Shown: piece by piece, positions 1 to 15,062 of the stretch
Layout of the letters: each line of letters opens with the position of its first letter
How positions within the stretch are numbered: position 1 is the stretch's first letter
Source: Bradyrhizobium prioriisuperbiae
Lineage (GTDB): Bacteria; Pseudomonadota; Alphaproteobacteria; Rhizobiales; Xanthobacteraceae
Assembly: GCF_032397745.1 (NCBI RefSeq)
Contig: NZ_CP135921.1
Location: 3,770,501 to 3,834,500, forward strand
DNA: 64,000 nt
Direction: 5' to 3'
The notes under the pieces: model-generated
What the model was told of the DNA's origin: nothing
The model's database searches: none
The model's input: the letters and a program-made list of their open reading frames with translations, nothing else
Made by a program: the position numbers and the translations under genes

Positions 1-242
1 GGAACCGTGCAGGGCGCGGCGATGGCGTTGACGCCGGTGAGGTCGCCGCCGACGAAAACGGCGGATTCAAAGCCCTGCGGCTTGGTGACGCCGCGCAGCA
101 CGGCATGCGCCACCGGGCTGCGCAGGAAGGCGACTTCGCTTTGGCCGGGAAGGATGATGTCGGACACATACTGGCCGCGGCCGTGCATCAGCCGCGCGTC
201 TTCCTTCCGAGGCACCCGTGCGCCGATGCCCTGATTTGCCAT
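1..242 (-). CDS. xanthine dehydrogenase-family molybdopterin-binding large subunit, N-terminal fragment
   Basis: The gene reads leftwards from an ATG at 242 and runs off the left edge, so only about 80 N-terminal residues are present. The visible opening, with RVPRKEDARLMHGRGQYV, then LPGQSEVAFLRSPVAHA, is the typical start of the aldehyde oxidase/xanthine dehydrogenase/CO dehydrogenase large (molybdopterin) subunit. A GGAAGGA ribosome-binding site lies about 7 nt before the ATG. These enzymes hydroxylate aromatic or heteroaromatic rings or aldehydes and work with FAD and 2Fe-2S subunits, which must lie outside the window if present. The substrate cannot be told from this fragment. Confidence 0.85.
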   Translation of the reverse strand, partial: MANQGIGARVPRKEDARLMHGRGQYVSDIILPGQSEVAFLRSPVAHAVLRGVTKPQGFESAVFVGGDLTGVNAIAAPCTV

Positions 243-271
243 GCTCATTCCTTCCCACAGAAAATTATTGT

Positions 272-1803: not shown

Positions 1804-2604
1804 TCAGTGCCCGGAAGATCGCGCTGCGCTGTGGTGCCACGGCAATGCAAGCCGTTCGGCGAGACTGACGGCTTCCATCAGCAGAACGCCGAGCACGGCC
1901 AGAAGCGTGATGGCGGCGAACACCCGGGGCGTGTCGAACATGCCCTGCGCGCTCAGGATGACGTAACCGAGGCCGCGCTGCGAGGACACGAACTCGCCGA
2001 CAATGGCGCCGACCAGCGCCAGCGACATCGAAACCTTCAGACCTGCGAAGAGATGCGGCAGCGCGCAATAGAGCTTGATCCGGGTCAATACCTTCCAGCG
2101 CGATCCGCGCAGGGTCCGCGCCAGGTCGATGGTATCGGGCGGCACCGAACGCAGGCCGAGAATGGTGTCGATCACCACGGCAAACACCGCGATCAGGAAG
2201 GCGATCGCGATCTTCGGCTCGGAGCCGGTGCCGAACCAGATGATGCAGAGCGGGGCGAGCGCGACCTTGGGCACGCTGTTGAGCGCCACGAACAGCGGAA
2301 ACAGCAGCCGGTCCAGCAGCTTCCATTCGGTGATGAGGACTGCGAACAGCACGCCGAGCACGGCGGCCACGGCAAAGCCCGCCAGCGTGATCCCGAGCGT
2401 ATAGCTCGCCTGTTGCGCAAACCACAGCGGTGATTGCGCCAGCTCCGTGATGATCTCAGAAGGCGCCGGCAGCAGCACGGGGCGGATCTGGTAGACCCGG
2501 CACGCCAGCTCCCAGAGCAGCAGAAAGACAGCCGCGCCGATGAACGGAATGGCCTTGCGGCCGATCGCAGCACCAGCGAGCGAGATACGGGACACGTCAG
2601 TCAT
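1804..2604 (-). CDS. ABC importer permease, SsuC/TauC-like
   Basis: Inner-membrane permease of about 266 residues (BPD_transp_1 type). Several hydrophobic segments are visible, and the cytoplasmic EAA loop that contacts the ATPase is seen as RTLRGSRWKVLTRIKLYCALP. It belongs to the SsuC/TauC/ThiX group that imports sulfonates, nitrate, pyrimidine precursors or aromatic acids. The ATG at 2604 overlaps the ATPase stop in ATGACTGA (8 bp), which argues for translational coupling. The frame is open 12 codons further upstream, but the overlapping start is more natural. It is the last gene of a three-gene operon. Confidence 0.87.
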   Translation of the reverse strand: MTDVSRISLAGAAIGRKAIPFIGAAVFLLLWELACRVYQIRPVLLPAPSEIITELAQSPLWFAQQASYTLGITLAGFAVAAVLGVLFAVLITEWKLLDRLLFPLFVALNSVPKVALAPLCIIWFGTGSEPKIAIAFLIAVFAVVIDTILGLRSVPPDTIDLARTLRGSRWKVLTRIKLYCALPHLFAGLKVSMSLALVGAIVGEFVSSQRGLGYVILSAQGMFDTPRVFAAITLLAVLGVLLMEAVSLAERLALPWHHSAARSSGH

Positions 2605-3361
2605 GCAGCAGCCCCATGCTTTCGAACAGCCCGCGGACATGGCGGGCGTAGGTTCCGAACGCAGCGCTTTCGCGCACCGCCAGCTTGCGATCCGTGGGCA
2701 GCGTGATCGGAATATCGTCGATCACCTTGCCCGGCCGCGGGCTGAACACGACAATGCGGCTGGACAGGAAGATCGCCTCCGAGATGCTGTGGGTGACGAA
2801 GATTACCGTCATGCGCCGGTGCATCCAGAGCCGGTACAGATCGACATTGAGCTGGTCCCGCGTCAGCGCATCGAGGGCGCCGAATGGTTCGTCCATCAGC
2901 AAAAGCCGCGGGTCGAGCAGCAGGGAACGACACATGGCGACGCGCTGGCGCATACCGCCCGACAGCGCCCGCGGGTAGGCGTGAACGAAGCCGCCGAGGC
3001 CCGCCATCTTCAGCAGCTCCAGTGCGCGCGGCTCGAACTGGCTCTTGCGCGCGCCGCTGAAGTCCGCGGGCAGCAGCACGTTGTCCAGCACATTCATCCA
3101 GTCCAGCAGCGCGTCGCGCTGGAATGCCATGCCGAGCCGGTCGGGCGGGCCGTCGATGCCCTTGCCGTCGATCGACAATGCGCCGCTGGTGGTTTGTTCC
3201 AGTCCGGCCAGGCAGCGCAGGAAGGTGCTCTTGCCGCAACCGCTGGGGCCGAGCAGGCTGACGAACTCGCCTTCCGCGATATCGATCGAAATGTTGTCGA
3301 TCGCGGTGAGGCCATCCGCCGGCCCGCCGAAACGCTTGCCGACATCCCTGGCAACGATCAT
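2597..3361 (-). CDS. ABC importer ATP-binding protein, SsuB/TauB-like
   Basis: A 254-residue ATPase that powers the adjoining permease. Walker A (GPSGCGKST), the signature LSGGMRQR, Walker B (LLLMDEPFGALD) and the H-loop region (VIFVTHSISEAI) are all intact and in order. It sits 7 bp downstream of the receptor gene and overlaps the permease by 8 bp, so receptor, ATPase and permease form one operon. Similarity to the nitrate/sulfonate/taurine class fits the NMT1-type receptor. The ligand is not known. Confidence 0.9.
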   Translation of the reverse strand: MIVARDVGKRFGGPADGLTAIDNISIDIAEGEFVSLLGPSGCGKSTFLRCLAGLEQTTSGALSIDGKGIDGPPDRLGMAFQRDALLDWMNVLDNVLLPADFSGARKSQFEPRALELLKMAGLGGFVHAYPRALSGGMRQRVAMCRSLLLDPRLLLMDEPFGALDALTRDQLNVDLYRLWMHRRMTVIFVTHSISEAIFLSSRIVVFSPRPGKVIDDIPITLPTDRKLAVRESAAFGTYARHVRGLFESMGLLHD

Positions 3362-3368
3362 TGCGGGC

Positions 3369-4406
3369 TCACTTCAGGCTCGCGCCGACGTCGGCGACGA
3401 TCTTCGGGTCGATCAGGTCGTTGGTGAAGAGATCCTTCGGATCGATCGTCTGCCCGAGCAATCCGCCTTCGGAGAGGATGCTCACAGCCTGCTGCCAGTC
3501 GCCCAGTGCCATGCTGCCGAACGGCAGCGATTTGACGGCCTCGGTCAGGGCATAGTCCTTCAAGGTATCGATCTGCTGGCGCAGCACCTTGGGGTCGAGC
3601 TTGGACTGCGGCCGCGCGGCAATGATCGCCTTCACCCCCTCGTCCTCATGACCGTTGAAGATGTAGGCCCAGCAGCCGGCGACGACACTGACAAAACGCT
3701 TGAGCGGGTCGCGCTTCGCGGTGATGGTCTTTTCGGTTGCAAACAGGCCGAAGCTCGGAAATTTCAGGCCGTTTTCGGAAAACCGCACCGCGGTCGACGG
3801 CCGCTGCGCCTCGACCACGGCCAGGAAGAACGGCACGGATGAGAAGGCGGCATCGGTACGGCTGGTCATGTACATGCCCGCCTTGCCGGCGGCATCCACG
3901 TTGAGCAGCTCGACATCGTCGCGCTTCAATTTTCCGGCCGCTAGGAAACGATCGATGAAGGGCGCCTCGAGCGAGCCGGCGGTGAAGGCGATCTTCTTGC
4001 CTTTAAGGTCGGCCGGTCCCTTGATGCTGCCATCCTTCGGCACCAGCAGGCCGATGTCGTTCTCCTGGATGAAACCCGCGATGGCTTTGACCGGCAGGCC
4101 TTTTGAACGCGCGATGGCCATCGGCGCGAGCGAGGCATGGCCGACATCATATTCGCCGTTGCCGACGATCTGCACCGTCGACACCGAGCCGTTGCCGTCA
4201 TCCAAAGTAACGTCGAGCCCATATTTTTTGAACAATCCCGACTGCTGGGCGAGATGGAATGGCGCCTGATCGCCCCAGGGCGTCCAGTCTAGACGCACCC
4301 TGATGGCATCTGCCGCAGTCGCCGGCGCGGCGAACGCCAGCCCCGCGAACAGCGAGCCGGATAGAAACGATGTGATTGCGCGGAAGCGATGACGGAGGTG
4401 CAGCAT
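3369..4406 (-). CDS. ABC transporter periplasmic receptor, NMT1/THI5-like
   Basis: Receptor of about 345 residues for the ABC importer encoded next. The ATG at 4406 has GAGG six bases upstream and opens a signal peptide (basic start, hydrophobic core, cleavage near AFAAPATAA). The mature part has the NMT1/THI5 fold features: VRLDWTPWGDQAPFHLAQQ, then GLFKKYGLDVTL, and the GPADLKGKKIAFTAGS segment. Known relatives bind pyrimidine precursors, sulfonates or aromatic acids. Because a ring-hydroxylating oxygenase and a MarR regulator lie next door, an aromatic ligand is my inference. The upstream region carries copy 2 of the shared motif, about 70 bp before the start. Confidence 0.85.
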   Translation of the reverse strand: MLHLRHRFRAITSFLSGSLFAGLAFAAPATAADAIRVRLDWTPWGDQAPFHLAQQSGLFKKYGLDVTLDDGNGSVSTVQIVGNGEYDVGHASLAPMAIARSKGLPVKAIAGFIQENDIGLLVPKDGSIKGPADLKGKKIAFTAGSLEAPFIDRFLAAGKLKRDDVELLNVDAAGKAGMYMTSRTDAAFSSVPFFLAVVEAQRPSTAVRFSENGLKFPSFGLFATEKTITAKRDPLKRFVSVVAGCWAYIFNGHEDEGVKAIIAARPQSKLDPKVLRQQIDTLKDYALTEAVKSLPFGSMALGDWQQAVSILSEGGLLGQTIDPKDLFTNDLIDPKIVADVGASLK

Positions 4407-4471
4407 GGAAACCTCGAAACGATCTGTAACCGGCACATGGCAGGCTAGCAGATTTGCAGGGGCGCGCAAGA

Positions 4472-4490
4472 TATGCAAGTGTACTGATGA
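4472..4490. promoter_or_regulatory. shared 19-nt motif, copy 2
   Basis: Sequence TATGCAAGTGTACTGATGA, in the divergent region between the ABC importer operon (leftwards) and the MarR gene (rightwards). It lies about 66 bp before the receptor start, nearly the same distance as copy 3 from the start of its leftward gene. It is a candidate operator for the divergently encoded MarR protein. Confidence 0.5.
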
Positions 4491-4657
4491 ATTTTGATGT
4501 CAGTGCCAACGGTGGTTGCCGGTGGGCGCTGCGTTTCGCTGTGAAAAAGCGCAGTGGGCGTCGCACCTGACGCGAAATCTCTGGTACGTTCGCGAGCAAT
4601 TGCGGATGACCGGGGCGCATGCGCGCCGACACCAGACAGACAGGATACCAAAAGCCA

Positions 4658-5227
4658 ATGCCGATACGCCGCGCCACCACCAAGCCGAAGCCCGCCGAAC
4701 CCACACCACCCCGTGCCAAACGCAGTGCTGCCGACGCGCCGGCGCCCGTGGCGCGCAAGGCGCCGCGGTCTCCGGAGATGCCGCTGTGGGCGCGGCCCGG
4801 CTATCTGCTGCGGCGGTTGCATCAGATTCACTATGCGCTGTTTTTCGAGGAGTGCGCCGACTTCGATATCACGCCGGTGCAATATGGGCTTCTGACGACG
4901 CTGTCGCAGAATCCGGACCTCGACCAGAATTCCCTGGGGCGCGAACTGGGGATCGACCGCACCAATGTTGCCGATGTGTTGGCGCGGCTGTCCCGGCGCG
5001 GTCTGCTGGAGCGCCACCGCAGCAAGGAAGACAAGCGCATGGTGCTGGCGCGGCTGACGCCTGCCGGGCAGCGCGTCACCGACGAGATGTATCTGGCGAT
5101 GCAGCGGGCCCAGAACCGGCTGCTGCAGCCGCTTCCGGCCGAGGAGCGCAAGGCCTTCATCAACACGCTGCTGCGACTGATCGACGGCAACAATCATCTG
5201 GGACGGACGATCTACAACCCGAGCTGA
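4658..5227 (+). CDS. MarR-family transcriptional regulator
   Basis: A winged-helix regulator of about 189 residues. After a Pro/Ala/Lys-rich N-terminal tail of some 40 residues the MarR fold follows: FDITPVQYGLLTTLSQNP, the recognition region LGIDRTNVADVLARLSRRG, and the wing RHRSKEDKRMVLARLTPAG. I use the ATG at 4658; the frame is open to 4619 and neither start has a strong ribosome-binding site. It is transcribed divergently from the ABC importer, a usual arrangement for a MarR repressor that controls itself and its neighbour. Aromatic acids are common MarR ligands, which fits the surrounding genes. Confidence 0.87.
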   Translation: MPIRRATTKPKPAEPTPPRAKRSAADAPAPVARKAPRSPEMPLWARPGYLLRRLHQIHYALFFEECADFDITPVQYGLLTTLSQNPDLDQNSLGRELGIDRTNVADVLARLSRRGLLERHRSKEDKRMVLARLTPAGQRVTDEMYLAMQRAQNRLLQPLPAEERKAFINTLLRLIDGNNHLGRTIYNPS

Positions 5228-5241
5228 CCGTCCATCAGGGT

Positions 5242-5886
5242 CTAGAACGCGTCCGGCTGGGTGTTCGGCTGCGTGTTGCGGAAGGCGTCGAGCTCCATGC
5301 AGCGTCCGAAAATTCCCTTGATGATGGGGTAATCGTCGACCGAGCAATCGAATCGCGCCGCATTGAACACCTGCGGCACCAGGCAGATGTCGGCCATGGT
5401 GACGCTGTCGCCAAAGCAGAAGGCGCCGTGCAGCTTCGTGTCGGCGAGATAGTCCTCCAGCCCGCGAAACCCTTCGGTGACCCAGTGCGCGTACCACGCC
5501 TTGGTGGCGGTCTCGTCGGCGCCGAACTGCGCCTTCAGGTGTTTGAGCACGCGCACATTGTTCAGCGGATGCATCTCGCATCCGATGATCTGCGACACCG
5601 CCCGCACATAGGCGCGCGAGCGGATATCTTTCGGGATCAGCGACGGCTCGGGATAGCTTTCATCGAGATATTCGATGGTCGCCATCGACTGGATGTAGCT
5701 GTCGGCGTCGTCCACCAGCAGCGGGAGCAACTGCTGCGGATTGAGCGCGCAATACTCCGGCGCGCGATGCTCCATCTTCGGCAGGCTGACGTAATGGGGC
5801 TCATAGGCGAGCCCCTTGTACGCCAGCGCGATCCGCAGCCGGAACGAGGTCGACGACCGGAAGAACGTGTAGAGCCGCCGCTGCAC
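5242..5886 (-). CDS. zeta-class glutathione transferase, maleylacetoacetate/maleylpyruvate isomerase-like
   Basis: About 214 residues from a GTG at 5886. The zeta-class active-site segment SSTSFRLRIALAYKGL near the N-terminus, followed by LNPQQLLPLLVDD and a substrate-binding IEYLDESYP, identifies the family. It isomerises cis to trans ring-cleavage products (maleylacetoacetate to fumarylacetoacetate, or maleylpyruvate to fumarylpyruvate) using glutathione. The start sits 5 bp after the stop of the upstream small gene, so the two are co-transcribed. The frame is open far upstream with no sensible protein, which is why I take the GTG. Next to a ring hydroxylase it suggests a gentisate- or homogentisate-type route. 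Confidence 0.82.
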   Translation of the reverse strand: MQRRLYTFFRSSTSFRLRIALAYKGLAYEPHYVSLPKMEHRAPEYCALNPQQLLPLLVDDADSYIQSMATIEYLDESYPEPSLIPKDIRSRAYVRAVSQIIGCEMHPLNNVRVLKHLKAQFGADETATKAWYAHWVTEGFRGLEDYLADTKLHGAFCFGDSVTMADICLVPQVFNAARFDCSVDDYPIIKGIFGRCMELDAFRNTQPNTQPDAF

Positions 5887-5891
5887 GGCGA

Positions 5892-6260
5892 TCAGCCCGC
5901 GGCCTTCTGAAGGATTTCGTCCGGCGTGGACGACACCACTTCCACATACTTCGGAACGAATTTGCCGCCCTCGATGTATTTGATGAATTCCGGCTTGATC
6001 TCGTTGGCGAGGATCTTGCGGATCTTGGCATGCTCTTCGATGTCGGCCCACTCGGCGATCAGGAAGAAGCGCTGCGGGTCCTCGGTGTCGCGACACAGTA
6101 CGCCGTCCTTCACCTGCGCGGACGATTTGTGCATCGGGTTGTCGTCGGAATAGTCGAACTTTTCGAACAGCTCGATGAAACGCGCTTCCTCGCCGGCCTG
6201 CACGCGAAAATCGTAGATGTGCAAGAAGTTGCCTTTGGTGGCGATGGGCTCCTGCGCCAT
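5892..6260 (-). CDS. small ABM-like (dimeric alpha/beta barrel) protein
   Basis: A 122-residue cytoplasmic protein with a pattern typical of antibiotic-biosynthesis-monooxygenase-like domains: an opening strand LHIYDFRVQ, the helix AGEEARFIELFEKF, and the strand FFLIAEWAD followed by a helix rich in acidic residues. GGAAAGGA lies before the ATG. It is the first gene of a two-gene unit with the isomerase and diverges from the dioxygenase gene. Relatives include quinol monooxygenases and muconolactone-isomerase-like proteins. The actual reaction here is unknown, but a role in handling an oxidised aromatic intermediate is plausible. Confidence 0.65.
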   Translation of the reverse strand: MAQEPIATKGNFLHIYDFRVQAGEEARFIELFEKFDYSDDNPMHKSSAQVKDGVLCRDTEDPQRFFLIAEWADIEEHAKIRKILANEIKPEFIKYIEGGKFVPKYVEVVSSTPDEILQKAAG

Positions 6261-6344: not shown

Positions 6345-6410
6345 TCTACCCAAGGCAATACGCGATCTCATTTTCGCGATGAGATGCGATCAATTCGGAT
6401 CATCACGCGC

Positions 6411-9314
6411 ATGGCATGGCAGCGAGCGGCGTCACTGAAATCGATTCCCAAGGATGGTGTGCTCGGTGTGAAACTCGATGGCACGCCGATCGCACTCTAT
6501 GATCTGCAGGGCGAGATCCGTGCGACGCACGGCATCTGCACCCACGCGCTGGCTTTCCTGGCCGATGGATTTGTCGAGGACGGCAAGATCGAATGCCCCT
6601 TGCATCAAGGGCTTTTCGATATCCGCAGCGGCAAGGCGCTGTGCGCGCCGCTGACCAAGGACATCGCCACCTACGCCGTGAAGGTGGAGGGCGACGATGT
6701 GCTGGTGGACCTGGAGCAATCAGGCCGTTCGACAGGTGATGTCTCCACAGATAATGCCTTGACCAGCGTTGAGCCCCTTGCAACGAGCGACAACGCCGCC
6801 GCCGCAACAAATGTCGTCATCGTCGGTGCCGGCCAGGCCGCCGCCGCCGCGATCGTCGCAATGCGCGATGCCGGCTTCAACGGCACCATCGATCTCGTCG
6901 GTGATGAAGTCCACCTGCCCTATGAGCGTCCGCCCTTGTCGAAGGAGGCATTGCTCGGACAGCCGACTGCCTTTCAGCCGCGGCTGAGCGAGGAGGACGC
7001 GCGGCGGTACGGCGTCAAACTTCATCTGGGTCAACGCGCTGTCGCAGTCGATTCGCGCGGACGGACTGTCAGCCTGGAGGGTGGCGAAGCGTTGTCCTAC
7101 GACGCGCTGCTGCTTGCCACCGGCGGCAGGGCGCGGCGCCTGGCTTTGCCGGGCAGCGACCTCCCGAATGTGTTGCATCTGCGCACGATCGAAGATGCAG
7201 CCATGATCGAGCGGGCTTTCGCGACCGCCACCCATGTCGGCATCATCGGAGGTGGTTTCATCGGCCTCGAGCTTGCGTCTTCGGCGGTTGCGCGCGGCCT
7301 TGCGGTCACGGTGCTGGAACGCGAGCCGGAAATCATGGCGCGCATTCTGCCGGCGCCGCTCGGTCGTGTGTTCCGCGCGCTGGCCCGGCGGCATCAGGTC
7401 GACGTGCGCCGCAACGCTGACGTCACCGAAATCACCCGGCGCGGCAAGAGGCTGGGCATCCACACCGGTGGCGAGATCATCGAGGTGGACGCGGTGCTGG
7501 TGGGAATCGGGTTAGAGCCGAATCTCGATCTGGCGCAGGCCGCGGGCTGCACCGTTGCCAACGGGATCGAGGTCGACGCCGATGGCCGCACCAGCGTCCC
7601 GAACGTCTGGGCCGCCGGCGATTGCACGCTTCATCATGTTGCCGCCGCGGGCGGTCGCCGGATCAGGCTGGAGAGCTGGCACAACGCAGAGGAGCAGGGC
7701 GCCGCCGCGGGCCGCTCCATCGCCGGTGCGGCGTCGGCCGCGCTCAAGCGGCCATGGTTCTGGACTGATCAGTTCGGTCTCAACATCCAGATGCTCGGTA
7801 CCATCGCGCCGACCGATCTGGTGGCCCATTCGGGCGCGGCTGGCGCCAGCGCCGGTGCGGTCTATCGCACCATCGATCGCGCCAGTGGCCGGCTGACCGG
7901 CGTGGTTGCCTTCTCGGACGCCCAGGCGATCCGGGCTGCGCGCGCCGAGCTCGAGTTATCCGCGCCGTTCGACCTGATGGCGGCCGGCGCGCAGGTGCTC
8001 TCCGCCGACACGCACACGGATGATGATTCTTCAGACGACCACTCGGAGGCCAGCGACATGACCGCAAATCCCCCGCTCTCGATTACCACCCGTTACGCCT
8101 GGCCGAAGGAAGGCCTGCGCCGGATCCCCGACTGGGTCTACACCGACCAGACCATCTACGAGCGCGAGATCGACAAGATCTTCCACGGCCGCACCTGGAA
8201 TTACGTGGCGCTGGAATGCGAGGTGCCGAATCCCGGTGACTACATTCGCTCCAATGTCGGGCCGACCCCGATCGTGGTGTCGCGCGCCGAGGACGGCAGC
8301 ATCCATGCGTTCGAAAATCGCTGCGCTCATCGTGCCGCGGAGTTCTGCCGCGAGCTCAGCGGCAACGCCAAGGAGTTCGTTTGCCCTTACCACCAGTGGT
8401 CCTATGACCTGAAGGGCAATCTCGCCGGCGTTCCCTTCCGGCGCGGTGTCGACGGCAAGGGCGGGATGCCGAAGGATTTTAAAGCCGCTGACCACGGTCT
8501 GCGCCAGCTCAACGTCACCACCCACCGCGGCGTGGTGTTCGCCTCCTATCAGCAGGATATGGAATTGCTGCAGGATTATCTGGGACCTGAGATCCTGGCC
8601 GAATTCGAAGCGACGTTCGATGGCCGCAAGCCGAGACTGCTGGGACATTACCGCCACTCTTTGCCGGGCAACTGGAAACTCTACCACGAAAACCTGAAGG
8701 ACCCGTACCACGCGACCCTGCTGCACACCTTCCTGGTGACGTTCGGCCTCTTGGTGGCCGGCAACAAGTCGCTGATGCTGGCAGATCCCACCGGCCGCCA
8801 CGGCGTGATGGCTTCGGCCAAGTCCGACGGCAAGAACGTGAGCAGCGACACCAAGAAGGAAATGCGGGCGTATCGGGAGAGCATGGAACTGGCCGAGCCG
8901 CGATTCATGGATTTCATCGACGAGTTCAAGAGCCCGTGGTCGGTCACGATGGCGACGATCTGGCCGAACCTGATCATCCAGCGCGAGATGAACACGCTCG
9001 GCGTGCGCCAGATCGTCCCGACTGGTCCCCATGAATTCATCATGAAGTGGACGATGTTCGGTTTCGAAGGCGACGACGAGGAAATGACCCGGCATCGGTT
9101 GCGACAGGGTAATTTGATGGGCCCGGCGGGCTTCCTCGGCCTTGAGGACAACGAGGCCATCAAGTTCGTGCAGGACGGCATGCAGCGGGTGCCGAACGGC
9201 CGCCATCTGGTCGAACTCGATCCCGCGGTCGCGGCCGGCACCTCGGATACCCTGATTTCAGAGGCGGCGATCCGGGCGATGTACCAGCACTGGCGCCAGG
9301 AAATGGGGCTGTGA
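6411..9314 (+). CDS. three-module ring-hydroxylating dioxygenase: Rieske ferredoxin + FAD reductase + oxygenase alpha subunit in one frame
   Basis: One uninterrupted frame of 967 codons from the ATG at 6411 (976 from 6384). Residues below are counted from 6384. A Rieske ferredoxin fills about 11-111 (C52, H54, C71, H74). A FAD/NAD(P)H reductase fills about 143-535 (VIVGAGQAA, GIIGGGFIGLELAS, AAGDC). An acidic linker of about 20 residues leads to an oxygenase alpha subunit from M559, with Rieske ligands C647, H649, C667, H670 and iron ligands H776, H781 and probably D922. The alpha part, 418 residues, has the length of salicylate 5-hydroxylase or AndAc-type anthranilate dioxygenase subunits, which normally work with separate ferredoxin and reductase proteins. 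A good internal ribosome-binding site precedes M559, so a separate alpha subunit may also be made. The beta subunit follows directly. The aromatic substrate is inferred, not proven. Confidence 0.88.
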   Translation: MAWQRAASLKSIPKDGVLGVKLDGTPIALYDLQGEIRATHGICTHALAFLADGFVEDGKIECPLHQGLFDIRSGKALCAPLTKDIATYAVKVEGDDVLVDLEQSGRSTGDVSTDNALTSVEPLATSDNAAAATNVVIVGAGQAAAAAIVAMRDAGFNGTIDLVGDEVHLPYERPPLSKEALLGQPTAFQPRLSEEDARRYGVKLHLGQRAVAVDSRGRTVSLEGGEALSYDALLLATGGRARRLALPGSDLPNVLHLRTIEDAAMIERAFATATHVGIIGGGFIGLELASSAVARGLAVTVLEREPEIMARILPAPLGRVFRALARRHQVDVRRNADVTEITRRGKRLGIHTGGEIIEVDAVLVGIGLEPNLDLAQAAGCTVANGIEVDADGRTSVPNVWAAGDCTLHHVAAAGGRRIRLESWHNAEEQGAAAGRSIAGAASAALKRPWFWTDQFGLNIQMLGTIAPTDLVAHSGAAGASAGAVYRTIDRASGRLTGVVAFSDAQAIRAARAELELSAPFDLMAAGAQVLSADTHTDDDSSDDHSEASDMTANPPLSITTRYAWPKEGLRRIPDWVYTDQTIYEREIDKIFHGRTWNYVALECEVPNPGDYIRSNVGPTPIVVSRAEDGSIHAFENRCAHRAAEFCRELSGNAKEFVCPYHQWSYDLKGNLAGVPFRRGVDGKGGMPKDFKAADHGLRQLNVTTHRGVVFASYQQDMELLQDYLGPEILAEFEATFDGRKPRLLGHYRHSLPGNWKLYHENLKDPYHATLLHTFLVTFGLLVAGNKSLMLADPTGRHGVMASAKSDGKNVSSDTKKEMRAYRESMELAEPRFMDFIDEFKSPWSVTMATIWPNLIIQREMNTLGVRQIVPTGPHEFIMKWTMFGFEGDDEEMTRHRLRQGNLMGPAGFLGLEDNEAIKFVQDGMQRVPNGRHLVELDPAVAAGTSDTLISEAAIRAMYQHWRQEMGL
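8044..8060 (+). promoter_or_regulatory. internal ribosome-binding site and ATG for the oxygenase alpha subunit
   Basis: GGAGG at 8044-8048 lies 9 nt before the in-frame ATG at 8058, exactly where the alpha-subunit homology starts. This is better than either candidate signal at the 5' end of the long frame. It suggests that the alpha subunit can be translated on its own although no stop codon separates it from the reductase. Confidence 0.6.
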
Positions 9315-9316
9315 CC

Positions 9317-9856
9317 ATGGGCGAGGGGGTTATGACGCGTCATCTGTCCACAGCCGTGCCCGCGACCGATCCGCGTCTCGATGCGGTGATGTTGCGTTAC
9401 GATATCGAGGCCTTCAACACCGCCTATGCCGAGACGCTGGACGAGCAGCGGCTGATGGACTGGGCTGAGATGTTCACCGACGACGCGCACTATGTCGTGG
9501 TCTCGCGCGAGAACTATCAGCGCAATCTGCCCGTCGGCCTCATCTACTGCGAGAACCGGGGCATGATCCGCGACCGCGCGTTCGCGCTGAAGGAGACCGC
9601 GATGTTCGCGCCGCGTTATCTGCGCCACCTGATCGCCAATCTCAGTGTCGGGCCCGAGCAAAGCGACGGCATCATCGTGGCGCGCGCCAATTACGTGGTG
9701 CTGCAGGTGCTGTTCGATCGCCCGGATGCCACGCTGCATCAGGTCGGCACTTATTATGACAAATTCCGTCGCACCGATCATGGCCTCAAGCTCGCGGAGC
9801 GGCGCTGCGTCTACGACAATCTGCTGGTGCCGAACGCGCTGTGCCTGCCGGTCTGA
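9317..9856 (+). CDS. ring-hydroxylating dioxygenase beta (small) subunit
   Basis: About 179 residues with the SnoaL/NTF2-like fold of oxygenase beta subunits: a helical start (LRYDIEAFNTAYAETLDEQ), then WAEMFTDDAHYVVVSRENY, and the C-terminal strand region KLAERRCVYDNLLVPNAL. It forms hetero-oligomers with the alpha subunit and is mainly structural. The start is ambiguous: a GTG at 9311 overlaps the upstream stop, an ATG at 9317 follows an AGGAAATGGGG stretch, and another ATG lies at 9332. The immediate contact with the alpha gene shows a single operon and fits two-subunit salicylate/anthranilate-type oxygenases. Confidence 0.88.
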   Translation: MGEGVMTRHLSTAVPATDPRLDAVMLRYDIEAFNTAYAETLDEQRLMDWAEMFTDDAHYVVVSRENYQRNLPVGLIYCENRGMIRDRAFALKETAMFAPRYLRHLIANLSVGPEQSDGIIVARANYVVLQVLFDRPDATLHQVGTYYDKFRRTDHGLKLAERRCVYDNLLVPNALCLPV

Positions 9857-9872
9857 TCGGGGATTCGTGGTC

Positions 9873-11306
9873 GTGAGTGGCAAAGACTTGTTGTTCAACT
9901 CGGCGCTGGACTTGCGCGAGCGTATCCGGTCGCGCCAGATATCGTCGATGGAGGCGACGGCCGCGGTGCTGCAGCGGATTGCGGACACGCAACCGACGCT
10001 CAATGCGTTCATCACCGTCGATGGCGACAATGCCTTGAAAGCGGCGGCTGAGGCCGATATGGCCGTAACCCGCGGCGACGATCTCGGTCCGCTGCATGGC
10101 GTTCCGGTTTCGATCAAGGACATTATCAACACTGCGGGCCTGCGCACCACCTGGGGCTCGCGGTTGATGGCCGACAACGTGCCTGACGCCGACGCCGTGG
10201 CGGTCGCCCGCTTGAAGAAAGCCGGCGCCATCATTGTCGGCAAGACCACCACGTCGGAATTCGCCCACAAGCTCCTGACCGACGCGCCGCTATTCGGCAT
10301 CACACGTAATCCCTGGGACGTGAGCCTCACGCCGGGTGGCTCGAGCGGCGGCTCGGCGGTTGCGGTGGCCGCCGGCATGGGTCCGCTGTCGCTGGCCACC
10401 GACGCCGGCGCCAGCACGCGGCTGCCGGCGGCGCTGACCGGAATCGTCGGGCTCAAGCCGACGCTCGGCGTAATCCCGCACAACCAGGTGCCGGATGGGT
10501 TCAATAACTTCATCCATCTCGGCGTGATGGCGCGCACCGTTGCCGACACCGCGCTGATGCTGGACGTGATCTCCGGGGAACACTCTTCTGATCCGCATTC
10601 CCTGGGGCGGCTGCGCCTCGATACATTGTCCGCGCTGGCCAGCGGGACAAAAGAGATCGGTCGCCTCAAGATCGCCTGGCGGCCCCTGATCGGCAACACG
10701 CTGCTCGACGATGAGATCCGGCGTGCCTGCGAGGAGGCACTCGATGTATTCCGCGAGCTGGGCTGCGTCGTTGATGTTCGCGACGATCCGGTCGAAAACG
10801 CCGAGCCGGCGTGGCGCATCCTGCAGCAATCGAACTGGGCGGCGCGGTTCTTTGCCAGGCTGGACGACGTGGAGGCGCAACTCGATCCCAGTTTTGTCGA
10901 CGGCATTCGCGCGGGCGGCGGATACTCGGGCCAGCAGCTTCTGCAGGCGACCTACAAGCGGACGCAACACTTCCGCACGGTGCAGGGCTGGTTCGCCGAT
11001 TACGATCTGGTGCTGACGCCCACCTGCAGCCGGCCGCCGCTGCCCGTCACAGCGCGCGCGCTCGACCCGATCAGCATCAACGGAACTGACGCCGGCGATA
11101 TGCGGCAGAGCTGGGTATCATACCTCAATCTGTTCGATCTGACCGGACATCCGGCCATCAGCATCCCCTGCGGCTTCACCGGTGCCGGCCTGCCGGTCGG
11201 ATTGCAGATTGTCGGCCGCTGGCATCAGGATGCGACTGTGCTTCAGGCTGCGGCAGCCTTCGAGGTGGCGCGCCCCTGTGCGCATCACGTGCCTCCTGAC
11301 CTGTAA
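9873..11306 (+). CDS. amidase signature family hydrolase
   Basis: About 477 residues. The Ser-cisSer-Lys triad is visible: Lys in HGVPVSIKDIINTAG, the cis-Ser in the Gly/Ser-rich GGSSGGSAVAVAAGMG, and the nucleophilic Ser in TDAGASTRLPAALTG, where the family usually has a GGGS variant. A GTG at 9873, about 9 nt after GGGGA, is the most likely start; the frame is open well upstream inside the beta-subunit gene. It hydrolyses an amide, releasing ammonia or an amine. As the last gene of the dioxygenase operon it may release the aromatic acid from an amide, or act on a pathway intermediate; the substrate cannot be read from the sequence. Confidence 0.83.
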   Translation: MSGKDLLFNSALDLRERIRSRQISSMEATAAVLQRIADTQPTLNAFITVDGDNALKAAAEADMAVTRGDDLGPLHGVPVSIKDIINTAGLRTTWGSRLMADNVPDADAVAVARLKKAGAIIVGKTTTSEFAHKLLTDAPLFGITRNPWDVSLTPGGSSGGSAVAVAAGMGPLSLATDAGASTRLPAALTGIVGLKPTLGVIPHNQVPDGFNNFIHLGVMARTVADTALMLDVISGEHSSDPHSLGRLRLDTLSALASGTKEIGRLKIAWRPLIGNTLLDDEIRRACEEALDVFRELGCVVDVRDDPVENAEPAWRILQQSNWAARFFARLDDVEAQLDPSFVDGIRAGGGYSGQQLLQATYKRTQHFRTVQGWFADYDLVLTPTCSRPPLPVTARALDPISINGTDAGDMRQSWVSYLNLFDLTGHPAISIPCGFTGAGLPVGLQIVGRWHQDATVLQAAAAFEVARPCAHHVPPDL

Positions 11307-11325: not shown

Positions 11326-11619
11326 TCAGCGTTCGGATGCAGAGATTGTTGGCCTTTGCGTCAGCAGGCTTCTTTTCCAGACGTTGACGGCCTTGTCCAC
11401 CGCAGCTCCGCCCTGGAAGATGAACTCCTCGACCTTGACGATGATCGCTGGAATGTCAGGTTTTACCGCGTCGACGACCTTGTGCAGGGCCTCCGCTTCG
11501 AGCTCGGATCGCACCGTAATGATCTTGTAGTCGTAGAGCTCCGCCTCGCCGAGCAGCTTCAGCGCATTGCAAACGTCAACAATTCGAGAAACGGGAACGT
11601 GAACCAGATAATTCGCCAT
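11326..11619 (-). CDS. small protein of unknown function
   Basis: About 97 residues from the ATG at 11619, which has GGAGG 7 nt upstream; the frame is open to 11667. The pattern of alternating strands and helices (YLVHVPVSRIVDVCNALKLL, then YDYKIITVRSELEAEALHKV, then IPAIIVKVEEFIF) suggests a compact alpha/beta fold without signal peptide or membrane segment. I do not recognise a family. It lies 19 bp from the convergent amidase gene, and 133 bp separate it from the end of the upstream TRAP operon, so it is probably transcribed alone or as a distal gene of that operon. Confidence 0.6.
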   Translation of the reverse strand: MANYLVHVPVSRIVDVCNALKLLGEAELYDYKIITVRSELEAEALHKVVDAVKPDIPAIIVKVEEFIFQGGAAVDKAVNVWKRSLLTQRPTISASER

Positions 11620-11752
11620 CAACAGCCTCCGACCGGCGACTTTGGACGAGTCTCCGCCGCTTGCCAATGTCGAATGAGGGCAGGCCGGCCATGCTGCGAA
11701 GCGACAATAAATCGCGCGCCTGTCATTGAACCAAATCTGTGATTCACGCGAC

Positions 11753-13843
11753 TTAGGCGATGGCTTGGCGACTACGTCGCATCAGCGATAACGCCAGCAG
11801 ACTGGTCGGGATCAGAATGGCGAGGCCGAGGCCCGTCACCTGCCATTGCGACAGCGGCATGATGCCGCCGCCGGGCGTCGCCAGCACGAATCCACCCAGC
11901 ACCAGCAGCACACGGAGCGGCCACTCGAGCACGCCGGTGCGCCTGAGATCGCCGATGCCGACCTGATAGCCCTGAATGCCGCCGCAAATGAATAGCGTGC
12001 CGATGCCCGCCAGCGCCATCAGTCCGAGGGCTGCGAGATAGGGGCTGTCGCCCTGCAGCACCAGAGCCGGGTTGAGCACGAAGAAGAACGGCAAGAAGTA
12101 GATGATGCTACCCACCCACATGGATTCCCAGCCGGTCTTCATTGCCGGTGATCCGGCAATGCCGGCGGCTGCGAACGACGCGATGGCCACCGGCGGCGTG
12201 ATCGACGACAGCATGCCCCAATAAAAAATGAACATGTGCACGGCCATGCGATTCAGCCCGAGCTTTTCCAGCGCGGGCGCAACCAGGATAGCGAGGAAGA
12301 TGTAGCAGGCTGTGGTGGTCAATCCGAGCCCGAGGATCAAGCTGGTGACGGCGCACATCACGAGCAGCAGGAAGGCGTCGTCGCCGGCAATGCGCAGGAG
12401 GTCATTGGCGAGGCTGGAGACGACCCCGGTCATCGAGAACGCGCCGATCAGCAGGCCGCAGCCGGCGAGGATGCCGACAAGTTCGACAAAGGTGCGGCCG
12501 TTGGTTTCGAGGAACTTTGCGATCGTGGAGAACGTCCAGCGCGTATCCCTGGAGAACAGCTGGTTCAGGATCAACAGCAGCACCGTGGCGTAGAACGGCG
12601 CATGGCTCTCGCGCTTGAAATACAGCAACATGACGATCAAGAGCGCGATGACGAAGATATAGTACCAGCCGCTCCTGATGGTGTCCGAGATCCGCGGCAG
12701 CTCGCTGCGTGGAATGCCCTTCAGGTCATGCCGCGCGGCATAGGCGTCGACCTGGAGGAACAGGCCGAGATAATACAGTGCGGCGGGGATGATCGCCGCG
12801 ACCGCAATCTCCGCGTAACTGACGTTGAGGAATTGCGCGATCACGAAGGCGGTGGCGCCCATCACCGGCGGCGCCAGCACTGCGCCGGTCGAGGCACAGG
12901 CTTCGATCGCTGCGGCATAAGACGCGCGAAATCCGCTGCGCTTCATCGTCGGAATCGTCATGGTGCCGGCCGTCAGCACATTGGAGATGATCGAGCCGGA
13001 CATCATGCCGAGCAGGCCGCTGGCGAGGATACAGACTTTCGCCGCGCCCCCGCGGAACGTGCCGCACAGCGCGAATGCGATATTGATAAAAAATTTTCCG
13101 GCCCCGGTCATCATCAGCGCGGTGCCGAACACCAGGAATCCGATCACGGTGTCGGCAAAGGCCTGGATCGGAATGCCGAGCAGGCTTTCGCCGGACAGCG
13201 TGTGATAGGCAGCGGCCTGCTCCAGCGTCGATTGGGTGCCCCGGAACGGCCCGAGCCATTTGGCGTCGGCGAAAAGCGGGTAGACGGTGAAGGGAAAGAC
13301 GCTGAGCAGCAGGCTCCAGCCGCCGGTTCGCCGCAGCGCCTCCATCAGCACGGCCCACATCACGAAGCCGCCGGCGATCACGGCTTTGGGCGCACCGTCG
13401 AATTCCCAGCCGGCCTGCGCGGCCTTGCGGATGTTCAGCATGAGCCAGATCGAGGCGGCGAACGTCAGCACGAACAGCACCACGTCGTACCAGGGGATGC
13501 GATCCAGCGGAGAGGTTTGTGTGCCCGGGAAAATCAGGAAGGTGAACGGCAGCATCAACGCGATCAGCAGATAGAAATATTCGGTGTTGAGCTGGGTGTA
13601 GTCGACGAAGAAGCGCAGCGCGAACTGCTGGTTGATGCATAACAGGATGGTCATCGCAGTGGCAGCGATCAACCCCCAGCGCCATCCGCCGCGCAAGCTC
13701 CGCACGCGGGTGACCTCGGCCTCCTGCATGCCGCCGGTGGCCGCATGCGGGTCATCGAACTCGATGCGCTTCGGGGCAGCATCGGGGACTGTCAGCGCTA
13801 CAGGCGCGAGAGAAGGGGAGCCGTCGGGCTGCATGCTGGACAT
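11753..13843 (-). CDS. TRAP transporter fused permease (small plus large membrane subunits, TAXI type)
   Basis: A 696-residue integral membrane protein with many hydrophobic segments spread over its length, after a soluble N-terminus of about 50 residues. The size and order match fused 4TM/12TM TRAP permeases. The DctM-like core is visible in the Gly-rich segments SGSIISNVLTAGTMTIPTMK and GAVLAPPVMGATAFVIAQFL and, later, the second repeat with GLGLTTTACYIFLAILVAP. AGGGA lies 6 nt before the start. Together with the adjacent TAXI receptor, 52 bp upstream, it makes a complete sodium- or proton-driven importer; TAXI systems are reported for small organic acids and amino acids. Confidence 0.9.
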   Translation of the reverse strand: MSSMQPDGSPSLAPVALTVPDAAPKRIEFDDPHAATGGMQEAEVTRVRSLRGGWRWGLIAATAMTILLCINQQFALRFFVDYTQLNTEYFYLLIALMLPFTFLIFPGTQTSPLDRIPWYDVVLFVLTFAASIWLMLNIRKAAQAGWEFDGAPKAVIAGGFVMWAVLMEALRRTGGWSLLLSVFPFTVYPLFADAKWLGPFRGTQSTLEQAAAYHTLSGESLLGIPIQAFADTVIGFLVFGTALMMTGAGKFFINIAFALCGTFRGGAAKVCILASGLLGMMSGSIISNVLTAGTMTIPTMKRSGFRASYAAAIEACASTGAVLAPPVMGATAFVIAQFLNVSYAEIAVAAIIPAALYYLGLFLQVDAYAARHDLKGIPRSELPRISDTIRSGWYYIFVIALLIVMLLYFKRESHAPFYATVLLLILNQLFSRDTRWTFSTIAKFLETNGRTFVELVGILAGCGLLIGAFSMTGVVSSLANDLLRIAGDDAFLLLVMCAVTSLILGLGLTTTACYIFLAILVAPALEKLGLNRMAVHMFIFYWGMLSSITPPVAIASFAAAGIAGSPAMKTGWESMWVGSIIYFLPFFFVLNPALVLQGDSPYLAALGLMALAGIGTLFICGGIQGYQVGIGDLRRTGVLEWPLRVLLVLGGFVLATPGGGIMPLSQWQVTGLGLAILIPTSLLALSLMRRSRQAIA

Positions 13844-13895
13844 GAAGATCCCTGGATATGCTTGAGCGATGACTGCAGCGACGGCTTTGCGGCCG

Positions 13896-15062
13896 TTACT
13901 CCTCGAAGCCGTTCGGCATGCCAGCCTTGGCCAGCGCGGCCTGCCGCGCCGCCATCCATCCCTGCAGGAATTTCGCCTCGTCCGCGGGTGGATTGCTCTT
14001 GCCGTACTCGGCCCAAGCCGATGTCAGCACCGTCTGCCGTTTCAGGAGGCCGTTGTTGTGGGCCTCGTTGTCATCGGTCCAGTGGCCTGCTTCCTTCAGC
14101 GCCTTTGCCGCGCCGGGATGCACTGGCACGACCCAGTTCATGGTCTGGGTCTTGACCGCAAGGCCGGTCGCGCCCGGCGCACCGTCCTTGTAGGCATCGA
14201 AGTTGACGATCATCGCCTTGGTGATCGCGTACACCTGATCGGCCGGTTGCGATCCGTAGACGGTCGCGATCGGATAGGGGTAGGTGCCGAGTTCGATCGG
14301 GTTCGATGGCGAAATTCCAGCACCGCAGGTGGCGACGAGTGGATTGAAGAACGCGCCGACCCGCTTGACCCGTTCCCATCCCGCCTTGTCGGCGTGAGGC
14401 AGTGGCGGCCAGATAATGCCGCGCGGCGAATTTTCCAGCTCCCGCGCCGGTGCCGTGATGGTGGTGGCGAACGCGGCGTCGGCGTCGTTGTTAATGACGC
14501 CTTTCCACATCGCGCTGTAGCTGGCGAACTCGACGATCTTGACGTCGTTCTTGGTCAGCCCGCCAAAGGCGATGATCGCCAGCGCGTTCTGGTTCAAAGC
14601 GGGCGAGCCGACCACGAAGCCGAGCCGCTTGCCCTTGAGATCCTTGATCTGGGTGACGCCGGTGTCCCGTGCCACGCCGACCGAGCCGGCGTTGCAGTCG
14701 ACCGACGACAGCGTGATCTGCAGCGGTTGTGGTCCCCATTCCTTGGCGCCGAACTCGAACACGCCTTCCTGAGCGAAATAGGCGCCTGATCCCATCCAGG
14801 AGAGCACCGCGCGGCCCGCGCGAAGCGGCGCCAGCCGCGCCACATCGTTGCCCGCCGGCAGCACGCGTACGTCGGATCCATATTTGTCTTTCATCATCTT
14901 GCCGACGGCGACCGCGATATTGAAGCCTGCGGTTCCGGTGTCATAAGCGGTGAACGACATGGTCGGCGGCAGCTTGAGATCTTGCGCGCGAGCGATCGTT
15001 GGACCGGAGAATGTCGATGCGGCAAGCGCGATCGAGGCAAGCGCAATGATCTGGCGGCTCAT
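13896..15062 (-). CDS. TAXI-family TRAP periplasmic receptor
   Basis: A 388-residue receptor with a clear signal peptide (hydrophobic residues 5-20, cleavage near ARAQ). TAXI features are present: SFTAYDTGTAGFNIAVAVGK, the segment DVARLAPLRAGRAVLSWMG, and IKDLKGKRLGFVVGSPALNQ. GGGAGGA precedes the ATG by 8 nt. It delivers its ligand to the fused permease encoded just downstream, and the two genes form an operon. The many aromatic and Asn/Asp residues in the C-terminal half fit a small polar ligand, but the ligand is unknown. Confidence 0.88.
   Translation of the reverse strand: MSRQIIALASIALAASTFSGPTIARAQDLKLPPTMSFTAYDTGTAGFNIAVAVGKMMKDKYGSDVRVLPAGNDVARLAPLRAGRAVLSWMGSGAYFAQEGVFEFGAKEWGPQPLQITLSSVDCNAGSVGVARDTGVTQIKDLKGKRLGFVVGSPALNQNALAIIAFGGLTKNDVKIVEFASYSAMWKGVINNDADAAFATTITAPARELENSPRGIIWPPLPHADKAGWERVKRVGAFFNPLVATCGAGISPSNPIELGTYPYPIATVYGSQPADQVYAITKAMIVNFDAYKDGAPGATGLAVKTQTMNWVVPVHPGAAKALKEAGHWTDDNEAHNNGLLKRQTVLTSAWAEYGKSNPPADEAKFLQGWMAARQAALAKAGMPNGFEE

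Follow-up and report, generated by a model that had tools for sequence, protein, structure and literature searches.

A single open frame of 967 codons occupies positions 6411–9314 of the window, i.e., the whole 64,000-nucleotide stretch of Bradyrhizobium prioriisuperbiae DNA analyzed here, and lies within an ORF that is open from 6384 to 9314 (Table 1). When 16 fused proteins were aligned, each of them, by its database start, began no more than one residue from the MAWQ encoded at 6411 of the window, which makes 6411 the likely start. Pfam assigns two Rieske matches (Rieske_2 and Rieske), Pyr_redox_2, Reductase_C, and Ring_hydroxyl_A to the encoded chain. According to the Pfam and NCBIfam spans, it comprises a Rieske ferredoxin (residues 3–99), an FAD/NAD(P)H reductase (residues 134–521), and an oxygenase alpha subunit (about residues 559–966). 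A preliminary description of the locus had claimed that ferredoxin, reductase, and alpha subunit share one frame, and this was borne out by the open frame and by the Pfam domains.

Table 1. Features of the fused gene and of its surroundings, in window coordinates.
Feature	Position	Strand	Basis or remark
Molybdenum hydroxylase large subunit, end (PicA-like)	1..248	-	rest and two more subunit genes just left (L160 14399-18749)
ABC importer: permease, ATPase, NMT1/THI5-type binding protein	1804..4478	-	also beside several relatives
MarR-family regulator, PicR-like by position	4619..5227	+	Pfam
Zeta-class GST, maleylacetoacetate/maleylpyruvate isomerase type; start inferred	5242..5880	-	TIGR01262 above cut-off
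Small ABM-domain protein, also in many related clusters	5892..6260	-	PF03992 just under cut-off
Rieske ferredoxin module, residues 1-103	6411..6719	+	Rieske_2; AndAb model match under cut-off
FAD/NAD(P)H ferredoxin-reductase module, residues 129-525	6795..7985	+	Pyr_redox_2, Reductase_C; high pLDDT
Variable reductase/oxygenase stretch, residues 536-577, holding the internal initiation site	8016..8141	+	hypervariable in alignment
Internal Shine-Dalgarno core GGAGG	8072..8076	+	8 bases before the internal ATG
Internal in-frame start ATG (M559)	8085..8087	+	near start position of unfused alpha subunits
Alpha-subunit module, 409 residues, predicted second product	8085..9314 (stop included)	+	Rieske, Ring_hydroxyl_A
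Oxygenase beta subunit; longest ORF overlaps the alpha stop codon	9311..9856	+	Ring_hydroxyl_B
Amidase ORF, overlaps the beta gene; start provisional	9645..11306	+	Pfam Amidase

Numbered from 6411, the ligands of the first Rieske site are C43/H45/C62/H65 and those of the second are C638/H640/C658/H661, and both sets are invariant in the 63 aligned of 121 proteins. The same applies to H767, H772, and D913, which we take from knowledge of the family to be the likely iron ligands. The fused protein therefore carries the CxH...CxxH site as well as the His/His/Asp iron site of a Rieske alpha subunit. Both Rieske sites of the preliminary description are present, as are its mononuclear iron ligands, but its numbering was mixed, with the sites given as C52 and C647 onward counting from 6384 and M559 counting from 6411. 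Biphenyl and toluene dioxygenase reductases are among the solved relatives of the reductase module. An AlphaFold model (pTM 0.50) was confident for the ferredoxin and reductase modules and poor for the alpha part, and pLDDT values below 50 were found at the linker residues 107–129, 536–538, and 540–577.

A protein search yielded 580 matches at E ≤ 0.001; identity was 63–88% for the best 120 of them. Among these best 120, the database check proposed earlier for the three-module order revealed the same domain set in 119; the remaining protein has 862 residues and no listed ferredoxin domain. As length and domains recur in 119 of the best 120, the frame is not a product of chance. On the DNA level, 124 sequences were sorted by frame into 39 three-module fusions, 23 unfused sets, five ferredoxin–alpha fusions, one copy of the window (L003), and 56 sequences with only an alpha subunit in reach. 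L003, as a truncated copy of the window, and four loci repeating an included genome were left out before counting, and five fused copies came in later, which gives 40 fused DNA copies (39 + 5 − 4). All 40 are open throughout, so the lack of a stop codon between the reductase and M559 is no sequencing accident. The fusion of ferredoxin, reductase, and alpha subunit is real and selected.

Full-length one-frame matches (E ≤ 1e-190) were found in 18 of 265 genomes of the genus of L012 (Bradyrhizobium) and in 10 of 295 sampled genomes of the family of L014 (Xanthobacter), eight more of the 295 matching over the alpha part only at the same threshold. In a class-wide sample, the fusion occurred in 6 of 385 genomes, including the window's own, and it is present in one of the three genomes of the window's own small genus. 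Holders by name include Bradyrhizobium, Xanthobacter, Oceanibaculum, Pacificispira, Paracoccus, and the gammaproteobacterium Alloalcanivorax. In the gene table of a Paracoccus plasmid (L004:9567-10814), the alpha gene is annotated from the internal ATG onward, although the open frame already runs from 7866; the ferredoxin–reductase part has no listed gene in this table, which is incomplete by design.

The internal start of each fused copy was located by a rule that is blind to the Shine–Dalgarno (SD) sequence, namely the 5'-most ATG in the 75 bases before an anchor or else the 5'-most GTG in the 42 bases before it. Picking the start by the best SD energy was biased and was replaced by this rule. 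An SD core was defined as GGAG, GAGG, or AGGA beginning 14–7 bases before the chosen start, and the 40 copies were grouped at 75% identity into 28 clusters. The rule found a start in all 40 copies (33 ATG, 7 GTG). Such a match is not rare by itself, and the evidence lies in the SD core and the codon bias, not in the bare 40/40. The core was present at −14 to −7 in 35 of the 40 copies and 25 of the 28 clusters, compared to a mean of 2.06 of 28 in equal-width windows further upstream (7 of 28 in the nearest window, which adjoins the zone). Of the remaining ATGs in the 28 genes, 70 of 603 in frame and 55 of 679 out of frame had a core at this distance. The resulting enrichment (Fisher, 3e-19) is overstated by the P value because the clusters are kin. 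For two of the three clusters without a core, L092 and L105, the rule chose a non-aligned codon, and the third, L128, is a true miss; in the RNA-structure and codon tests, the start of L092 and L105 (2 of 28 rows) was shifted by hand to the aligned position. The gene's own first start satisfies the SD-core rule in only 17 of 28 clusters.

Codon choice at the site is biased. In the SD zone, GAG and GAA encode Glu at a ratio of 32:2; this ratio is 1033:771 over the remainder of the gene and 11:26 in the linker immediately preceding the zone. GGA serves for Gly in 5 of 7 cases against 233 of 2633 elsewhere; Lys and Gln codons show no significant bias (4:0 each). Furthermore, in all 28 clusters, local RNA structure at the site was weaker than the average for its ORF, a raw value that includes the base composition of the linker. 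A conserved SD sequence and a conserved start codon are thus present within the frame, but two results run contrary. A duplex-energy test with redrawn codons, in which Glu residues were held fixed, gave values below 0.05 in only 2 of 35 cases, and the ferredoxin/reductase junction, used as a negative control, was only partly clean, with a start codon at an energy of ≤ −6 in 13 of 35 (the window's GTG included). An ATG was found at this junction in only 8 of 35.

On the protein level, Met occurs in the junction stretch of 101 of 118 anchored three-module proteins and of 45 of 87 anchored proteins from the reductase-less list (P0122-P0210), with 3 of 121 and 2 of 89 proteins lacking an anchor, respectively. 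Most of P0122-P0210 are ferredoxin–alpha fusions without the reductase module; three of the 89 have fewer than 530 residues and one has no listed ferredoxin domain. The notion that Met is replaced only by Val was dropped, as Val stands in 17 of 17 Met-less three-module proteins but also in 41 of 42 Met-less reductase-less ones.

These data have to be weighed against the possibility that only the full-length chain is made, with the Met and the purine-rich codons being a relic or serving an acidic flexible linker. The weak outcome of the codon-redrawing test and the richness of the SD zone in Glu (34 of 112 codons) would fit this possibility. However, the linker is otherwise hypervariable, the SD core begins in varying codon phases and is found even in L017, which has no acidic residues there, and the choice of Glu and Gly codons is biased beyond the needs of the amino acids. 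Moreover, Met is absent from 42 of 87 reductase-less proteins but from only 17 of 118 three-module proteins, a contrast that reflects few events, since about 40 of the 42 form one lineage of near-copies. We consider exclusive synthesis of the full-length chain unlikely. Much less probable still is that the purine-rich stretch slows elongation between domains to aid folding, without any initiation. Its location at a domain boundary agrees with such a role, but its spacing to the start codon is that of initiation, and unfused genes begin their alpha subunit in the same region.

Because a ribosome-binding site and the alpha start are kept inside the frame, both products are to be expected, and the sequence data indicate that the long chain and the free alpha subunit are probably both produced. 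The long chain is probably selected, as the frame is open in 40 of 40 fused copies, and the short product probably is as well, as its start site is also kept. The choice between a whole chain and a separate alpha polypeptide, as originally posed, is therefore probably a false one, the kept internal SD and start predicting both. As for the acidic flexible linker proposed between reductase and oxygenase, its acidic stretch just before M559 is partly a translated SD sequence.

To place the fusion among its relatives, we used a quick maximum likelihood tree of 109 alpha sequences (82 loci and 27 chosen database proteins), from which alpha-only rows with less than 49.3% identity were left out. The tree is midpoint-rooted and without bootstrap, and the base of the fused clade is unresolved. 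All 52 three-module rows belong to one clade of 73 rows (SH-aLRT 100), which also holds 15 ferredoxin–alpha and six alpha-only rows, and the 23 unfused sets fall outside of it. Well-supported branches force at least four changes to the ferredoxin–alpha form; therefore, modules were lost again several times. The loci L116-L119 and L121 (longer stretches L144-L147 and L149) are ferredoxin–alpha fusions without a reductase, nested in the three-module clade. Among the six alpha-only rows of the clade, a reductase piece remains in frame in L030, and the others come partly from short contigs. At L028 (same sequence as L122), L120, L123, and L088, the alpha subunit is about 80% identical to that of the window; ferredoxin and reductase were not found adjacent on these short contigs, and the partners may be out of reach.

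The unfused sets indicate how a fusion can arise. Counted from the first base of the reductase stop codon, their alpha start lies 14–69 bases downstream in 19 of 23 sets; it overlaps this stop codon in 3 of 23, L048 being irregular. Reductase and alpha are in a common frame in 12 of 23, and an SD core precedes the alpha start in 21 of 23 (AAGG accepted as core). Loss of one stop codon between reductase and alpha therefore fuses the genes and leaves the ribosome-binding site inside. Tree and frames suggest that an ancestral four-gene picB set (ferredoxin, reductase, alpha, and beta) gave rise to the fused form in a picolinate-type cluster. Under the simplest scenario, the stop codons separating ferredoxin, reductase, and alpha would have disappeared a single time, in the common ancestor of a clade that is mainly alphaproteobacterial. 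The alpha subunit's own SD sequence and start codon would have stayed in place and, as their conservation suggests, been kept.

The gene neighborhood was searched in 60 sequences, using labelled proteins from annotated records and the window as queries. A related MarR gene lies beside 34 of the 39 three-module loci (window counted), and a PicA-like molybdenum hydroxylase beside 31, or 32 with the window, where the genes reach in from the left. PicC or PicD is found beside 13 of the 39 loci, a window-like amidase without PicC beside 16, and neither is in reach at 10. Unlike in known pic clusters, no match to PicC, PicD, PicE, PicF, or PicG was obtained within the window. In the host genome, PicD is matched only at 36%, and the best PicC-like match (44%; L162, G000:C1:8064682-8065659) has a TGA within the matched stretch. 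As there is no close PicD and the PicC-like frame has a stop, the lower pathway is different from that already known. An amidase, a zeta-class GST, and an ABM protein (5242-6260 and 9645-11306) stand in place of PicC/PicD/PicE/PicF/PicG, and together they may form a so far undescribed lower pathway acting on the aza-gentisate 3,6-dihydroxypicolinate. Past the amidase, 11326-15062 holds a 113-residue ORF that matches no family, along with genes of a TAXI-type TRAP transporter, for which no close counterpart was found beside the relatives searched.

Among the closest known systems is PicB of the Alcaligenes and Bordetella pic clusters. The unfused relatives are ordered ferredoxin–reductase–alpha–beta, and their alpha subunits are 61–69% identical to that of the window in 23 of 23 sets. 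In Alcaligenes faecalis (L022), this gene order lies beside a molybdenum hydroxylase. The genes are separate there, whereas the window has one chain with a kept internal start. In the window, the ferredoxin, reductase, alpha, and beta parts, though fused, likewise lie near a PicA-like molybdenum hydroxylase and a MarR regulator, and the carboxylate-binding active-site Arg of the group is present as R866. This residue is invariant in the 63 aligned proteins and aligns to R309 of TPADO, assuming a numbering offset of 2. Owing to the gene neighborhood and the closest unfused relatives, hydroxypicolinate is the likely substrate, and the reaction would therefore be a monooxygenation, so that the earlier label of a dioxygenase probably does not apply. 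The protein most likely represents a joined PicB1-B2-B3 with a different lower pathway (amidase, zeta GST, and ABM protein); which of the numbers B1, B2, and B3 denotes which fused part is our assumption. According to one report, PicA and PicB act on picolinate and 6-hydroxypicolinate, leading to 3,6-dihydroxypicolinate (PMC10142695), and another assigns hydroxypicolinate 3-monooxygenase, with its active-site Arg, to the alpha family of the window protein (PMC9060491). The likely role is that of PicB, a 6-hydroxypicolinate 3-monooxygenase, rather than anthranilate or salicylate oxidation.

Action on salicylate or anthranilate, as by enzymes of the salicylate 5-hydroxylase or AndAc type, was considered as well. 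The alpha subunit does belong with this group, in agreement with its first assignment. The salicylate 5-hydroxylase NagGH uses separate electron-transfer proteins. It is the closest solved relative by sequence (PDB 7c8z) and has the alpha family and the catalytic residues in common with the fused protein, but its gene setting differs. AndAc is the best NCBIfam model, and a GST of the maleylpyruvate-isomerase type adjoins the gene. However, the four component models of AndA-type anthranilate dioxygenase (AndAa-d) each match the window under the equivalog cut-off, with AndAc (NF041684) scoring 394 bits against a cut-off of 750. One gentisate dioxygenase query had no match in the window, and the closest unfused relatives are housed in pic-type clusters, so we regard salicylate or anthranilate as doubtful substrates. 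A MarR regulator had first suggested the auxin (iad) oxygenase of Variovorax and Bradyrhizobium, an identity that we rejected as highly improbable. The structure 7yls, which we take to be IadD, reached 112 bits compared to 422 for salicylate 5-hydroxylase, and IadC is reported to be a PDR-type FMN reductase.

Reductase, ferredoxin, and oxygenase sites lie in one chain, and the beta subunit is separate and adjoins it. The view that only beta would be needed in addition thus agrees with the set of parts encoded, which appears complete. A 2025 review notes that self-sufficient Rieske oxygenases have yet to be identified and advocates building fusions artificially (PMC12445004). Among the matches listed from titles and abstract beginnings of the openly licensed literature, no description of a natural ferredoxin–reductase–alpha fusion was found. 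Each module is familiar by itself; what is new is that they are joined in a single chain that retains an internal start.

Translation from 6411 would yield a single 967-residue polypeptide combining NAD(P)H oxidation with ferredoxin and oxygenase, and translation from 8085 would yield a free alpha subunit of 409 residues. Both alpha forms would assemble with the separate beta subunit into alpha3beta3 hexamers, where only part of the alpha subunits bear an electron-delivery arm; such mixing would restrict how many bulky reductase arms each trimer carries. We therefore favor, with a probability of about 0.6, a dual-start fused picB gene whose products form mixed hexamers and most likely hydroxylate 6-hydroxypicolinate at C3. 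A broader proposal, to which we give even odds, is that this is the first natural Rieske family with a whole electron-transfer chain in its alpha subunit, characterized by dual alpha forms, mixed hexamers at a set ratio of arms to active sites, and repeated excision of modules (giving ferredoxin–alpha and perhaps free alpha). With at least 120 homologues, the family would offer a natural candidate for a self-sufficient Rieske oxygenase that evolution has already refined. Retention of the internal start suggests that fused and free alpha subunits are combined in nature, which to our knowledge is a design rule unused in engineered fusions. A comparable arrangement is described in a report on archaeal Cas11b (PMC11899642), where a start inside a long frame likewise gives a C-terminal product for the same complex; the window gene differs in that it encodes an oxygenase and its long form adds redox domains.
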